From Phenylobacterium montanum (GTDB lineage Bacteria; Pseudomonadota; Alphaproteobacteria; Caulobacterales; Caulobacteraceae): a DNA stretch of 64,000 bases. Positions 18,242 to 28,978 of the stretch are shown here, in pieces; positions within the stretch are counted from its first letter, which is position 1, and every line of letters begins with the position of its first letter. Below the pieces are notes generated by a model that had not been told where the DNA came from, did not search any database, and saw nothing but the letters and a program-made list of their open reading frames with translations. Location: NCBI RefSeq assembly GCF_018135625.1, contig NZ_CP073078.1, forward strand, positions 5,302,501 through 5,366,500. Direction: 5' to 3'. The position numbers and the translations under genes were made by a program.

Positions 18242-18390
18242 CTCAGTGCGTCCGGCGGGCTGCATATCCAGGTCACCATACGGCCCGCAAGTTCGAGGCC
18301 AAGCGCCTGTTTGCCCCGAAAGGCGTTTAGGTTGAGTTGATCGGTTCGAAGGCCGCGGGCGGCGGCTCGCGGGGTTGCGGAGGCGAAGGC

Positions 18391-19788
18391 ATGACGGGCG
18401 CGGTCATCCTGGCGCGGGCGCAGTTCGCCTTCACCATGGCCTTTCATATCGTCTTTCCGGCCTTTTCCATCGGCCTGGCCAGCTATCTGGCGGTGCTGGA
18501 GGGGCTGTGGCTGAGGACAGGGCGCAGCGTTTTTCTGGACCTGTTCCACTACTGGCTGAAGATCTTCGCGGTGGCCTTCGGGGCCGGCGTGGTTTCGGGG
18601 CTGGTGATGTCCTACCAGTTTGGGGCCAACTGGTCGGTGTTCGCCGACAAGGCCGGGCCCGTGGTCGGGCCCCTGATGGCCTATGAAGTGATGACCGCCT
18701 TCTTCCTCGAGGCTGGCTTCCTGGGCGTGATGCTGTTCGGCCTGCAGCGGGTGGGCAAGGCTCTGCATTTCACCGCCACCCTGGCGGTGGCGATCGGCAC
18801 CTTCATCTCGGCCTTCTGGATCCTGTCGACCAACAGTTGGATGCAGACCCCGGCGGGATACGCGATCAACGCCCAGGGCCAGTTCGTGCCGGTCGACTGG
18901 CTGAAGGTGATCTTCAACCCCTCCTTCCCCTATCGCCTGGTCCATATGGTGCTGGCGGCCTATCTGACCACGGCGCTGGTGGTCGGGGCGGTGGGCGGTT
19001 TCCACCTGCTGCGGGACAAGGCCAACCTGGCGACCCGGACCATGTTTTCCATGGCCATGTGGATGGCGGCCCTGGTGGCGCCGATCCAGATCCTGGCCGG
19101 CGACCAGCACGGCCTGAACACGCTGCAGAACCAGCCTGTGAAGATCATGGCCATGGAGGGCCATTTCCAGAGCCACCCCCATGGCGCCCCCCTGATCCTG
19201 TTCGGCCTGCCGGACCAGAAAGCGGGGGTGATGCGGGGCGCGGTGGAGATCCCCAAGCTGGGCTCGCTGGTGCTGAAGCACGACCCGAACGCGCCGATGA
19301 AGGGGCTGGACAGCGTGCCGCGCAGCGACTGGCCGGTCGTGGCGATCCTGTTCTGGTCGTTCCGCATCATGGTCGGATCGGGCCTGGCCATGTTCGGGCT
19401 GGGGCTCTTGTCCCTGTTCGCGCGCTGGCGGGGGCGGCTCTATGACTGGGCCTGGCTGCACCGGCTGGCGATCGCCGCCGGGCCGCTGGGCTTCGTGGCC
19501 GTGATCGCCGGCTGGGTGACCACGGAGGCGGGGCGGCAGCCCTACACGGTCTATGGCGTGCTGCGGACGGCGCAGTCCGCCTCGCCCCTGGCCTCGCCGG
19601 CGGTGGCTGCCTCGCTGGCGGCGTTTGCGGTGGTCTATTTCACCGTGTTCGGGGCGGGGCTGTTCTACCTCTTGAGGCTGATGAGCCATGCGCCGCTGCC
19701 GCGCGAACGGGGGCCAGGGCCGGTCGATGTGGCTGGCATCGCGCTCGGAGCGGCGGCGGTTCGGGTGGGAGGCGGCCATGAGCGGTGA
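18391..19788 (+). CDS. cydA: cytochrome bd-type ubiquinol oxidase subunit I (cyanide-insensitive type)
   Basis: 465 residues from ATG 18391, preceded by GGAGGCGAAGGC. It is a polytopic membrane protein with the haem-ligand His in FTMAFHIVFPAFSIG, the quinol loop residues in QPVKIMAMEGHFQ (Lys and Glu) and GWVTTEAGRQPYTVYG. The quinol loop is short, lacking the long C-terminal insertion, as in CioA-type oxidases. It reduces O2 to water with quinol electrons. It overlaps cydB by 11 bases. Confidence 0.95.
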   Translation: MTGAVILARAQFAFTMAFHIVFPAFSIGLASYLAVLEGLWLRTGRSVFLDLFHYWLKIFAVAFGAGVVSGLVMSYQFGANWSVFADKAGPVVGPLMAYEVMTAFFLEAGFLGVMLFGLQRVGKALHFTATLAVAIGTFISAFWILSTNSWMQTPAGYAINAQGQFVPVDWLKVIFNPSFPYRLVHMVLAAYLTTALVVGAVGGFHLLRDKANLATRTMFSMAMWMAALVAPIQILAGDQHGLNTLQNQPVKIMAMEGHFQSHPHGAPLILFGLPDQKAGVMRGAVEIPKLGSLVLKHDPNAPMKGLDSVPRSDWPVVAILFWSFRIMVGSGLAMFGLGLLSLFARWRGRLYDWAWLHRLAIAAGPLGFVAVIAGWVTTEAGRQPYTVYGVLRTAQSASPLASPAVAASLAAFAVVYFTVFGAGLFYLLRLMSHAPLPRERGPGPVDVAGIALGAAAVRVGGGHER

Positions 19789-20785
19789 GACCTGGCTGGT
19801 CGGCGTCTGGGCTGGGCTGATCGCATTCGCCGTGTTCGCCTATGTGGTGATGGACGGCTTCGACCTCGGCATCGGGGTGCTGTTTCCCTTCCTGGGCGCC
19901 CACAGCCAGCGCGGCCGGGCGATGAACGCGATCGCGCCGGTGTGGGACGGCAACGAGACCTGGCTGGTCCTGGGCGGCGGCGGCCTGTTCGCCGCCTTTC
20001 CGCTGGCCTATGCGATCCTGATGCCGGCGGTCTATGCGCCCTTGATCGCCATGCTGCTGGGATTGGTGTTCCGCGGCGTGGCCTTCGAGTTCCGCTGGCG
20101 CACCCTGCGCGGCCGCTGGGCCTGGGACGTGGCCTTCTCGGCCGGCTCGACCCTGGCCGCAGTCTCCCAAGGGATGATCCTGGGGGCGATCCTGCAAGGG
20201 GTGAAGGTCTCCGGCCGCGCCTATGCCGGCGGCTGGTGGGATTGGCTGACCCCGTTCAGCGTGTTGACCGGCCTCTCGGTCGCGGCGGGCTATGCGCTCC
20301 TGGGCGCCTGCTGGCTGATCCTGAAGAGCGAGGGCGAGCTGCAGGACCGCGCCTGGCGCCTGGCCTGGCGCTGCGCGGCCGCCACGATGGCCGCCATCGC
20401 CGCCGTCAGCGCCGCCACGCCACTCTTGAAGGGGGACTATTGGCGCCGCTGGTTCGCCTTTCCCAATGTGCTGGCCACGGCCCAGGTCCCGCTGCTGGTG
20501 CTGATCGTAGCTGTTGGTCTATTCGTCAGTTTGCGTCGCAAGGCCGAGCTCTGGCCCTTTCCCCTGGCGCTGGCCCTTTTCGCCCTCGGCTATGCGGGCC
20601 TGGCGATCAGCCTTTATCCCTATCTCGTACCCGGCGAGGTCACCCTGTGGCAGGCGGCGGCCCCGACCGCCAGCCTCGGCTTCATGCTGGCCGGCGCGGC
20701 GGTGCTGATCCCGGTGATCCTGGCCTATACCAGCTACGCCTACTGGGTGTTCCGCGGCAAGACCGGCGCGGAGGGCTACCACTGA
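19778..20785 (+). CDS. cydB: cytochrome bd-type oxidase subunit II
   Basis: 335 residues from ATG 19778 inside the end of cydA. The CydB signature VMDGFDLGIGVLFPFLG and WDGNETWLVLGGGGLFAAFP are present near the N-terminus, with eight or nine membrane helices. It is the structural partner of CydA and stabilises the haem b/d sites. It is translationally coupled on both sides: overlap with cydA and a one-base overlap with the small gene that follows. Confidence 0.96.
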   Translation: MSGETWLVGVWAGLIAFAVFAYVVMDGFDLGIGVLFPFLGAHSQRGRAMNAIAPVWDGNETWLVLGGGGLFAAFPLAYAILMPAVYAPLIAMLLGLVFRGVAFEFRWRTLRGRWAWDVAFSAGSTLAAVSQGMILGAILQGVKVSGRAYAGGWWDWLTPFSVLTGLSVAAGYALLGACWLILKSEGELQDRAWRLAWRCAAATMAAIAAVSAATPLLKGDYWRRWFAFPNVLATAQVPLLVLIVAVGLFVSLRRKAELWPFPLALALFALGYAGLAISLYPYLVPGEVTLWQAAAPTASLGFMLAGAAVLIPVILAYTSYAYWVFRGKTGAEGYH

Positions 20786-21481: not shown

Positions 21482-24265
21482 CTACCCCATCCGCTCCGGC
21501 GCGGCCCCGCAGGTTTCGCAGACCAGCTTGCCTCCATGGCGCGTCAGGGCCAGGTCGCCGCAGGCGGGGCAGACGTCGTGTTCCGGGCTGGCGCCTGAGG
21601 CGCCGGGCTTGGCGCGGCCGCCCATGGGCAGGAACACCAGGTTGTCGGGGGCGGCGCCGCGGGAGAAGCCCTTGGAGATGAACTTCGAGGCGGGCAGGGG
21701 CTCCGGCTCCTCGCCCTCCAGCTTTTCCTGCTTGCCGTGGCCGAGGCCGTCGGCGTTGAACTCGTCGGGGTCGGCGTTGGCCAGGTCCTGGCGGTCCAGG
21801 TAGCTGACCGCAAGCTCGCGAAAGATGTAGTCCAGGATCGAGGTCGCCGAGCGGATGGTGTCGTTGCCGGTGACCCGGCCGGCCGGCTCGAAGCGGGTGA
21901 AGACGAAGGCGTCGACGAACTCGTCCAGCGGCACGCCGTATTGCAGGCCGATGGAGACGGCGATGGCGAAGTTGTTCATCAGCGAGCGGAAGGCGGCGCC
22001 CTCCTTGTGCATGTCGATGAACACCTCGCCGAGTTCGCCGTCCTCGTACTCGCCGGTGTGCAGATAGACCTTGTGGCCGCCGACGGCCGCCTTCTGGATG
22101 TAGCCCTTGCGGCGGTCGGGCAGGCGGCGGCGGGTGCGTTCGCGCTCAACGATCTTCTCCACGACGCGTTCGGCGACGATGGGGGCGGGCGCGGGGCGGC
22201 GCGGCGGTTCCTCGGTCAGGGCGGGCAAGTCGAGGGCCTGGGTGGCGGGCGCCGGGTCGCGTTGCAGCCGCACGGCGCGCAGGCCCGCGCGGGCCGCCGC
22301 CGCTTGGAGACGCGCGGCGGCAGGCGGCTCGTCGGCCCAGCCGAGGCGCAGAGGCGAAAGGTCGGGCGCGCAGGTATAGGCCTCGGCGGCCGCGGACATG
22401 GCAAGGCGCGCCGAGAGGCCGATCTGGTCCGCGCCGGCGAGCAGCGTGCGGGCCTCCAGCGTCAGGTCGCCCTCGCTCAGAGGGCCGCCCAGGACGAAGG
22501 CTTCGGCCTCCGCGATCTCGGCGGCGGAGAAGCCGGCCAGGGCCAGGACGTCGAAGCTCGGGTCCGCCAGGTCCTCAGCCGAGGCACCGAGAACGTCTTG
22601 GACGAAACCTTCGCCGACGACGGCCGGGGCGAAGGCCTGGCGCAGGCTGGAGACCGAGAACAGGCGCGCCTGCACCGCGGCGATCTCGTGGTCGGTGAAG
22701 CCGCGCTCGTGCAAGGCCCTGGCGCCGAGGCCGGGGGCTGCGGCGAGGTCGCGGGCGCCGAACAGGCGGGTTATGGCCGCATCGATGTCCACGCCGAGGC
22801 GGGCGAGGCCGCGGGCGGCGGCGGGGCTGAGGGTGCGGACGGCTAGCCCGTCGGCGGTCTCGGCGAGTGTGGCCGGGCCGGTCCAGGGCGCGGCGCCCAG
22901 GCTGGCGCCGCCGAGGCGCAGGGAGAGCTCGGCGTCGGCGAACAGGGCGGTGACTTCGGCGTTGCGAAGGCCGGTGCGGCGGGCGGACTTCAGGGTCGCG
23001 GTCAGGAGGTCGGCCGCGCCGGCGCCCACCGGCGTCGATCGATCGCAGCGTTTGGCCCGGGCGGCGATGGCGGCGATGCGGGCGTCACGGTCTTGCTCGA
23101 AGGCCGGATAGGGGCCGAGGGCGAAGGCGATTTCGGCCGAGGCGGCCAGGCCCGCAGCGGCGGTCAGGGCGAACAGCTCGCCGGCGAAGCGGCGGGCCTC
23201 GTCGCTGTCGAAGGCGAGGCCGCGGGCGACCAGCACTTCGGCGAGGCCGCCGAGGGTCAGGCCCAGGGGGCGCCAGACGGTGTCGCCGCGCCGATCGGCG
23301 GTCTCCAGGTCGAGGGCCAGGGTCCAGAGGCGCACCTCGGCGGTGAAGGCCTCCAGGTCGAAGATCTCGCCGTTGTCGAAGGCTCGAAGGTCGATGGCCG
23401 CGCGGCAGGCGCCTTGCGAACGCGCGGCGGCCTCGGCGTCGGCGGGATCGAAGGCCAGGAACACCCGGCCGGTCTCCCAGCCGGCGGCGGCGGCCTTCAG
23501 CGCAGCGGGTTCGGCGGCCTCGACCCCGTCGCGGCGGGCGGCGAGCAGCAGGGCGGGAGCGGGAGCGGCCTCGATCTCCGCCGAAGTCCAGGCGGTGGCG
23601 CCGGCGCGGGCCAGGCTGATGGCGCGGCGGATCAGCGCGTCGCCGACCCCGGCCTCGCGGGCGCGGCGGGCGGCGCGGCCGAGGGCAGCGTTGAGGCTGG
23701 GGTCCGCGCAGGCGGCGCGCTCGCCCTCGCAGCGGCTGACCGCGTCCATCACCGCCTGCAGGCGCTCGTCATGCGCGGCGGCGGCGTCGGCCACCAGGGC
23801 CTCGCGGCGGGCCTCGGCCAGGTGACGCTCGACGGCGCGGGCGAACTCGAAGCCGGTGAGGTCGACCACCTCGGGCTCGGCCGCGGCGCCGGCGGCGGGC
23901 AGGGCGGGGGCGGCGCGGCCTTCGATCAGGCTCTCCAGCAGGGCGTCGCGAAAGCGGACGGCGTCGCCGGTCGCAGCGAACACGCCAAGCGCCGCGCCGC
24001 GGCCGGCGAGGCGGCTGGCGTAGCGGTCGAAGGCGCCGTCCAGGGCCTCGGCCAGGGCCGGCTCCGCCGGGGGCAAGGGCTCGGATTCGCCCTCGGCGAC
24101 GATGCCGCCCTGCGCATCGGCCCAGTCCAGCCATGCGTCGATTCGCGCCGAGGTCCAGTCCACGGGGGCCAGGACCTCGGCCACGCCGGCGCCGCGCTCG
24201 ACCTCGCGCAGGTCGAGGGTCGCTTGTTCGGCGCCGATCGGCGGACGTTGAGACTGAAATCGCAT
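21482..24265 (-). CDS. NrdJ-derived TSCPD-domain protein, catalytically degenerate ribonucleotide reductase relative
   Basis: 927 residues. The C-terminal 715-825 region is a nearly intact NrdJ TSCPD domain ([36 protein letters not shown]), followed by a CPAC...CETC zinc finger (Cys899, 902, 916, 919) as in NrdJ. Residues about 170-690 align by eye with the B12-dependent reductase barrel ([45 protein letters not shown]). The catalytic NPCSE is DPADA (273-277), the phosphate-binding PTGTI is gone, and the N-terminal part is shortened. It should not reduce ribonucleotides; a regulatory or structural role is possible. Confidence 0.8.
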
Positions 24266-25415: not shown

Positions 25416-26036
25416 ATGGCGGCGCGCCCGCTGCTGCTCGCCGGCGCCGGGGCCGCCATCGTCCTGGCGCTGGGCGTGGGCGGCCTGGTGCGCGCCCAGC
25501 AGGAGCCCGCCGCGCCCGCCGCCCCCAAGCCGGCGGCGGCGCTGAAGCCCGCACAACCGGCGGCCGCCCCGCCCGCAGCCGAGCCCGAGGCGCCAAGCCC
25601 CTCGCCGCCGATGGAGGCGGCTTCGAACGACGACGAGGACCAGGGCGAGCCGGCCTCATCCAATCCCGCGCCTTCCAAGCCGGTCGAGCCCTTGAAGCGG
25701 CCGCGCTATGCGGTGGCGGTGCTGCAGGCCCTGGACAAGGTCTCGGCCGAGACCCTGCGCTTCGAGGCCCCGATCAACCAGCCGATCCGCTACAAGTCGC
25801 TGATCTTCATCGTCCGCGCCTGCGAGACCACCGCGCCCGACGAGACCATCACCGACGCGGTCGCCCACGTGGAGATCATCTCCCAGCCCAAGGGGCCGGA
25901 CGACCAGCCGCCCCCGCCCGGCAAGCAGGTGTTTCGCGGCTGGATTTACGCCAATTCACCCGGACTGAACCTGTTCCAGCATCCGGTCTATGACGCCTGG
26001 CTGATCGCCTGCAAGACGGCCGCGCCGTCCACATAG
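25416..26036 (+). CDS. DUF2155 domain protein, exported
   Basis: 206 residues with a signal or anchor segment ([21 protein letters not shown]-like start), a long Ala/Pro-rich linker to about residue 95, then DUF2155: [32 protein letters not shown] and the end [21 protein letters not shown]. The two conserved cysteines probably pair. The domain is common next to complex I and aat genes in alphaproteobacteria; function is unknown. Its 3' end overlaps the converging aat gene by 49 bases. Confidence 0.88.
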
Positions 26037-26656
26037 GCCGGCAGGCGGTAGAAGTCGGCGTCGCGCGCCAGGGCCTCGTCCAACTTCCTGCGATAGAGGG
26101 CGCGGGGGATCTCCACCGCGCCGAACTGGGCCAGGTGCTCGGTCATGAACTGGGTGTCCAGCAGGCGGAACTGGCCGGCGCTCAGCCGGGCGACCAGGTG
26201 CGCCAGGGCGACCTTGCTGGCGTCGCGAGCTCTGGAGAACATGCTCTCGCCGAAGAAGGCACCGCCCAGGCTGACGCCATAGAGGCCGCCGACCAGCACC
26301 CCTTCAAGCCAGCACTCGACGCTGTGGGCCAGGCCCAGGCGGTAGAGCTGGCCGTAGAGGGCCTGGATCGGCGCGTTGATCCAGGTCTCCTCGCGCCCCG
26401 GCTTGGCGGCGGCGCAGGCGGCGACCACGGCGTCGAAGGCAGTGTCGATGCGCACCTGGAACACCTCGGCCCGGATGGTGCGGGCCAGGCGGCGGGGGAT
26501 GTGCACCGTGTGCAGCGGGATCACCCCCCGGTGCTCGGGATCGACCAGGAAGATGCGATCGTCTTCGCGCGCGTCCGCCATCGGGAACACGCCCCGGCGA
26601 TAGCACTCGATCAGGTCTTCGACCGTGAAGCCCCCTGTCCCTGAAGATCGGGGCAC
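25988..26656 (-). CDS. aat: leucyl/phenylalanyl-tRNA--protein transferase
   Basis: 222 residues from GTG 26656; the nearby ATG at 26664 is in another frame. Family motifs are [46 protein letters not shown] and [17 protein letters not shown]. The enzyme adds Leu or Phe from tRNA to N-terminal Lys/Arg, marking proteins for ClpAP. It starts 4 bases after the accC stop, so it is the distal gene of the acc operon. Confidence 0.95.
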
Positions 26657-26660
26657 GCGC

Positions 26661-28004
<1,344 letters not shown>

Positions 28005-28007
28005 CGC

Positions 28008-28508
28008 CTACTCGATCACCACCAGGGCTTCGCCGAATTCCACCGGTTGGGCGTCTTCGACCAGGATCTTCAGCACCGTCCCGGCGCGCGGGGCGGGGAT
28101 CGGGTTCATGGTCTTCATGGCCTCGATGATCAGCAGCGTCTGCCCGGCCGAGACCTGGTCGCCCACCTTGATGAACGAGGCGGCGCCCGGCTGGGGCTGC
28201 AGATAGACGGTGCCGACCATGGGCGACTTGACCTGCTCGCCGCGCTCGGGCTCGGCGGCGGGCGCAGCCGCGGGGGCGGCGGCCACAGGCGCAGCGGCCG
28301 GCGCGGCCATGGGCGCGGGCGCGGCGACATAGTGCGCCGGCGCGGCGGCCACCGAGATCTCGCGGGCGACGCGGATCTTCAGGCCCCCCTGTTCGACCTC
28401 GATCTCGGTCAGGCCGGTGTCGGTCAGGATGTCGGCCAGCTTGCGCACCAGCCTGGGGTCGATCGAGCCGCCGGAGTCCTTAGACACGGGTCCCTTGGAA
28501 TCGTTCAT
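28008..28508 (-). CDS. accB: acetyl-CoA carboxylase biotin carboxyl carrier protein
   Basis: 166 residues. An N-terminal segment ([21 protein letters not shown]) is followed by an Ala/Pro-rich hinge and the biotinyl domain with EAMKTMN, the biotinylated Lys being residue 132. It carries carboxybiotin between AccC and AccAD. It is located between aroQ and accC in one minus-strand operon. Confidence 0.97.
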
Positions 28509-28531
28509 GGATTGAAAAACCTTGTTCTTAT

Positions 28532-28978
28532 TCAGGCCGAGGCCTTGGCCGCTTGCGCCGCCGCCTCGATAGCGAGTTCATAGCTCCTGGCGCCGAAGCC
28601 GCTGACCAGCCCCGTCGCCGCCAGGGAGACGAAAGTGTGCCTGCGAAACTCCTCGCGCGCCGCAGGGTTCGACAGGTGGCACTCGACGATCGGTATGCTC
28701 AGGGCCTTCAGCGCGTCCAGAAGGGCGATCGAGGTGTGGCCATAGCCGGCCGGATTGATCACCAGGGCGCAGGCGCCCTCGCGCGCCTCCTGCACCCAGT
28801 CGATCAGCTGCCCCTCGTGGTTCGACTGGCGGAACACCACCTGGCGGCCGAAAACAGCCGCCCGCGCCTCGCAAAGGCCGCGAACGTCCTCGAGGGTGGT
28901 GGTCCCATAGATGTGCGGCTCTCGGACCCCCAACAGGTTGAGGTTGGGGCCGTTCAGCACATAGATCGGTTTGGTCAT
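28532..28978 (-). CDS. aroQ: type II 3-dehydroquinate dehydratase
   Basis: 148 residues from ATG 28978; the frame continues upstream but without homology. Typical motifs are [19 protein letters not shown] (catalytic Tyr), [32 protein letters not shown] and ECHLSNP (catalytic His region). It converts 3-dehydroquinate to 3-dehydroshikimate in the shikimate pathway. It is first gene of the aroQ-accB-accC-aat run. Confidence 0.97.

Follow-up and report, generated by a model that had tools for sequence, protein, structure and literature searches.

Gene layout

The analyzed window is a stretch of 64,000 nucleotides of Phenylobacterium montanum DNA. It contains an open reading frame for a protein of 927 aa, referred to below as pseudo-NrdJ, that is related to the B12-dependent class II ribonucleotide reductases (RNR; NrdJ). 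The features of this gene and of its neighbours are as follows.

21482..24265, minus strand: ORF of pseudo-NrdJ (P0001), 927 aa, ATG start at 24265, no internal stop
23681..23734, minus strand: conserved segment R178-L195, aligned to the NrdJ sequence 'QCEAEGDACFDIERNPVL' (alignment; within the domain 115-224 found by phmmer in PDB)
23435..23449, minus strand: DPADA, residues 273-277, the NPCSE position of the earlier note; catalytic loop deleted or unalignable in orthologues
22442..23410, minus strand: eroded RNR barrel, residues 286-608 (Pfam, phmmer, AlphaFold/Foldseek match to RNR)
21776..22132, minus strand: TSCPD (putatively IscU-like) domain, residues about 712-830, nearly invariant (Pfam, alignment, dN/dS)
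21509..21571, minus strand: four-cysteine zinc finger C899/C902/C916/C919, two CRD redox cysteines absent (roles according to PMC5704485)
24325..24867, plus strand: NDUFA12-family gene, conserved divergent neighbour (locus comparison)
25991..28577, minus strand: aat, accC and accB, conserved neighbours, also found beside intact nrdJ in locus L184 (family f5)

Pseudo-NrdJ contains cysteines only at positions 179, 186, 287, 407, 632, 899, 902, 916 and 919. The codes beginning with f, g, G and L are labels internal to this analysis for families, genera, genomes and loci, respectively. The cydAB genes encoding subunits I and II of cytochrome bd oxidase (window positions 18337-20785) are located directly downstream of the pseudo-NrdJ gene; they are not among the neighbours common to the other loci compared.

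Similarity to class II ribonucleotide reductases

According to the Pfam analysis, residues 291-488 of pseudo-NrdJ match the RNR barrel (PF02867, E 5.5e-13), and the TSCPD domain (PF12637) is recognized with an E value of 1.7e-10. The search against NrdJ family profiles that the earlier note had called for gave a match to NF005736 (PRK07562), the profile of alphaproteobacterial B12-dependent RNR, in four stretches with 425 bits, which is below its curated cut-off of 1737 bits. The TIGR02504 (NrdJ_Z) profile gave 54.9 bits at a curated cut-off of 399.95. A phmmer search of the PDB aligned residues 115-224 and 286-608 to the R. sphaeroides NrdJ structures 7b9p and 7b9q.

The AlphaFold model of pseudo-NrdJ (68 orthologues) has a pLDDT of 85 and a pTM of 0.74. 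Comparison of this model with the PDB in Foldseek returned RNR large subunits as all of the first 50 matches, the best being 7b9p (E 5e-24, TM 0.50/0.52, 909 columns). It had been considered that the region before residue 700 might prove unrelated to RNR; the opposite was found, as both programs point to an RNR-like predicted fold. Judging from the barrel homology in sequence and from the predicted fold, pseudo-NrdJ is a member of the RNR large-subunit superfamily by descent. It resembles the alphaproteobacterial NrdJ (7b9p) in descent, domain order, RNR-like fold and the presence of the CRD tail.

Loss of the catalytic residues and probable loss of the nucleotide site

Intact NrdJ sequences from inside and outside the order (37 in total) were aligned with 46 pseudo forms from families f1-f4, and retention was scored on those columns in which at least 97% of the intact sequences agree. 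The pseudo forms keep 96-99% of these residues in the TSCPD, which had indeed been described as almost unchanged, versus 0-45% in the reductase barrel.

The N-x-C-x-E motif is found nowhere in pseudo-NrdJ, including the positions outside the active-site region where a complete copy had been thought conceivable. It is missing from all 118 pseudo frames of Caulobacterales and is present in 67 of the 68 intact NrdJ, the remaining one having SPCSE. Cys219, Cys496 and Cys507 (L065 numbering) are kept in none of the 46 pseudo forms; by position, C219 and C507 would be the active-site redox pair and Cys496 the thiyl cysteine. None of the aligned pseudo forms has a catalytic loop that can be aligned, the loop being either deleted or too divergent, and the PTGTI loop is absent. 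The stretch before the active site comprises about 270 residues in pseudo-NrdJ and about 490 in intact proteins, so that the alignment agrees with the earlier note on the loss of PTGTI and on the roughly halved N-terminal region. DPADA lies at residues 273-277, as stated in the earlier note; it is not a point-mutated NPCSE, since in all orthologues the catalytic loop as a whole is either deleted or cannot be aligned.

In three of the four orthologue families, gaps make up about 92% of the stretch corresponding to residues 200-300 of L065, which we take to be the part of the barrel carrying the specificity-site loops; in the remaining family, they make up about half of it. Since this stretch is mostly deleted, retained nucleotide sensing by pseudo-NrdJ is judged unlikely and was rejected as a candidate role, and the nucleotide binding proposed in the earlier note likewise appears improbable. 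In comparison with the alphaproteobacterial NrdJ, pseudo-NrdJ is about 300 residues shorter and lacks the catalytic cysteines, the catalytic loop, PTGTI, the redox pair of the tail and most of the specificity-site-loop stretch. By its sequence, it very probably cannot work as a B12-dependent RNR.

The C-terminal tail

The six cysteines of the CRD tail were assigned by Loderer et al. (2017), two to redox and four to zinc binding (PMC5704485). The four zinc cysteines are kept in 44 of the 46 pseudo forms, including the protein under study, whereas the redox cysteines (C933/C945 of S. nassauensis) are kept in none. Thus, the terminal CxxC...CxxC finger proposed earlier is real, but of the six CRD cysteines it retains only four. 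Active class II RNRs need the CRD both to form oligomers driven by dATP/dGTP and to transfer electrons (PMC5704485). Because the redox pair is missing, electron transfer by the CRD of pseudo-NrdJ is excluded, which leaves assembly or binding.

An IscU-like domain plus a zinc finger was described by Burnim et al. (2022; PMC9669993), and the TSCPD, judged by reading from position and order, appears to correspond to this IscU-like domain. NrdJb has the same arrangement, in which a zinc finger follows the IscU-like (TSCPD) domain. However, NrdJb partners an active NrdJa and has six cysteines, whereas pseudo-NrdJ is devoid of the two redox cysteines, and Caulobacter vibrioides DSM 9893 has no active partner barrel. 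The model of the isolated TSCPD showed no significant match in the PDB (best E 0.14), so its fold gives no function.

Selection

The dN/dS values were obtained by the Nei-Gojobori method, a simple counting on few close pairs. In pairs of pseudo forms, the barrel has dN/dS of 0.05-0.4, with most pairs below 0.25 and the highest value in the own-genus pair L001/L002, and the TSCPD has dN/dS of about 0-0.17. The barrel of the intact NrdJ controls gave 0.04-0.15 (six pairs, one of them saturated). Together with the orthologues found in 189 of the 199 same-family genomes (about 95% of the sample), these values support the proposal that the frame is kept by selection. As the dead barrel itself is under selection, it may be more than a body.

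The dS is often lower in TSCPD codons than in barrel codons of the same pair (L165/L168, L018/L020 and others). The pair L167/L168 shows the reverse.

Distribution and origin in Caulobacterales

In its own genome, pseudo-NrdJ matches itself only. Pseudo forms are present in four families of the order as open frames of about 800-1000 aa. The NF005736 profile is above its cut-off in 52 of 249 genomes of the order, with intact proteins in family f5, degenerate ones in f1, f2 and f3, and both kinds in f4. Other Alphaproteobacteria are mostly intact, with 166 of 289 genomes above the cut-off. The gene is absent from some genomes (part of genus g3, g18, g31) and is hence not universally needed.

The accB, accC, aat and NDUFA12 genes accompany the pseudo loci of f1-f4 as well as the intact nrdJ of the sister family f5 (L184). 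This shared neighbourhood shows that the intact gene decayed in place. In the rpoB tree, the pseudo rows of f1, f2 and f3 formed one clade (95/93), and those of f4 formed a separate clade (100/100) beside intact f4. The best tree has two origins of pseudo forms in the order; a single origin is compatible with the data (p-AU 0.289). The rpoB gene of genome G316 (L251, L252; G316 C1:1256051-1260049) appears to be interrupted by several stops and changes of frame, which are probably sequencing errors of the assembly.

TSCPD and dead barrels in other Alphaproteobacteria

In families f13 and f102, with genomes of 1.2-1.4 Mb, a TSCPD protein of about 280 aa remains and the barrel is gone; the search for RNR large subunits in these genomes found only an NrdA-like one. 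The TSCPD-only protein of f13 has the four-cysteine finger. A dead barrel with TSCPD was detected in G612, G436, f31 and G495. The dead-barrel proteins of G604, f119 and f125 have themselves lost the TSCPD or keep it in a degenerate state. In G356 (L095), NrdJ has an intact NPCSE and a six-cysteine tail and is devoid of TSCPD. As shown by these separate losses, the reductase and the TSCPD can be lost independently, and the TSCPD is the part that stays in most cases seen.

Possible function of pseudo-NrdJ

The profile matches, the absence of N-x-C-x-E from all 118 pseudo frames and the purifying selection speak for the original suggestion that this full-length gene has been maintained although its product, a descendant of NrdJ, is catalytically dead. 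Since every residue needed for RNR chemistry is lost and one end is nearly unchanged, the protein appears to have a different job now. Pseudo-NrdJ is probably an NrdJ that can no longer reduce ribonucleotides and has been retained because of a second, non-catalytic function. It arose from an intact NrdJ by vertical descent in place. The thiyl cysteine and the active-site redox pair were lost, as were the PTGTI loop and the redox pair of the tail; purifying selection has preserved the barrel scaffold, the presumably IscU-like TSCPD and the four-cysteine zinc site. The working part would be the C-terminal CRD (TSCPD and zinc finger), which drives oligomerization in active class II RNRs and would here assemble the protein with itself or with a client, the dead barrel serving as a body. 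However, a role centred on the CRD does not account for all dead NrdJ, as shown by the degenerate or lost TSCPD in f119 and f125.

More generally, the TSCPD/CRD tail of alphaproteobacterial NrdJ may have a cellular function that does not depend on RNR and is important enough for several lineages, including Caulobacter, to have kept the tail after the death of the reductase as a dead-barrel or TSCPD-only protein; in Caulobacter, it may regulate dNTP supply or the cell cycle in a way not described so far. This proposal is about as likely as not. Repeated survival of the TSCPD after loss of the reductase points to a further function of a domain common in many class II RNRs, a function testable where reductase activity no longer masks it.

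Among the more specific explanations, one that is slightly less likely than not holds that the alphaproteobacterial TSCPD serves a purpose outside dNTP metabolism, such as binding to another protein or to nucleic acid, and was a moonlighting domain of NrdJ that outlived the reductase. It persists while the reductase decays or disappears, both in Caulobacterales and in several further families, and its constraint is far above that of the rest of the protein; the lack of a PDB fold match for its model and the existence of some dead NrdJ without TSCPD argue against this role.

A less probable possibility is that the CRD, the dead barrel or both bind class I NrdA or NrdAB and tune its assembly or activity, NrdAB being a tentative client. 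NrdA is the RNR always found beside pseudo-NrdJ, and the TSCPD-only proteins coexist with NrdA only. A search for the ATP-cone in 14 genomes found it in an NrdR-sized frame only and on no NrdA or NrdB; in active NrdJ, it is the CRD that controls dNTP-driven oligomers (PMC5704485). Inactive herpesvirus R1 homologues acting on other proteins may offer a parallel. However, the intact-NrdJ genomes G201 and G202 are also without the ATP-cone, and genomes without pseudo-NrdJ live on NrdA alone.

A functionless decaying relic, caught before its loss, would fit the strong erosion of the barrel and the missing gene in a few lineages. It is very unlikely, however, because frames of about 800-1000 aa stay open in four families, dN/dS is far lower than 1 throughout the protein and close to 0 in the TSCPD, and 44 of the 46 forms agree both in the four cysteines they retain and in the two they lack. 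It is extremely improbable that the protein is still an active RNR whose active site or substrate is unusual, despite the barrel homology, the RNR-like predicted fold and the purifying selection on the barrel: the three catalytic cysteines, PTGTI and the redox pair of the tail are absent from all orthologues examined, and the hosts possess class I NrdA.

Neither a description of a bacterial dead RNR nor a paper combining "TSCPD" with "ribonucleotide reductase" was found in the literature searched, which includes few of the subscription journals. The inactive R1 homologues of herpesviruses (e.g., HCMV UL45, PMC5469499) are similar to the non-catalytic pseudo-NrdJ as RNR large-subunit homologues that lost catalysis and kept another function. 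They represent an unrelated event, concerning a viral class I R1 and not a chromosomal bacterial class II enzyme.

Ribonucleotide reductases of the host genomes and of Caulobacter crescentus

C. vibrioides DSM 9893 (locus L186, genome G076) carries the pseudo-NrdJ gene. No NF005736 match above the cut-off and no other class II RNR were found in this genome, where class I NrdA is the only RNR besides the pseudo gene. In C. crescentus, CCNA_01966 was named NrdJ, and dNTP production was listed among the B12-dependent processes (PMC6538847). Because of the gene content of C. vibrioides DSM 9893, the published NrdJ CCNA_01966 is almost certainly pseudo-NrdJ. A conserved protein of a model bacterium has been annotated and published as a working B12-dependent RNR, which, by its sequence, it very probably cannot be, and this status alters the B12 and dNTP picture of Caulobacter.

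Besides pseudo-NrdJ, the RNR large subunits of the P. montanum genome comprise a class I NrdA recognized by NF006577 (1030 bits) and an NrdJ_Z that is short and distant (TIGR02504, 462 bits); no intact NrdJ of the NF005736 type was found there. The idea that pseudo-NrdJ regulates a true NrdJ was rejected for this reason, and C. vibrioides DSM 9893 likewise offers no such partner. The NrdJ_Z of P. montanum (G000 C1:3898697-3900271, L031) contains NPCGE and seems to be an active enzyme of the class II type; its occurrence in the family is sporadic.
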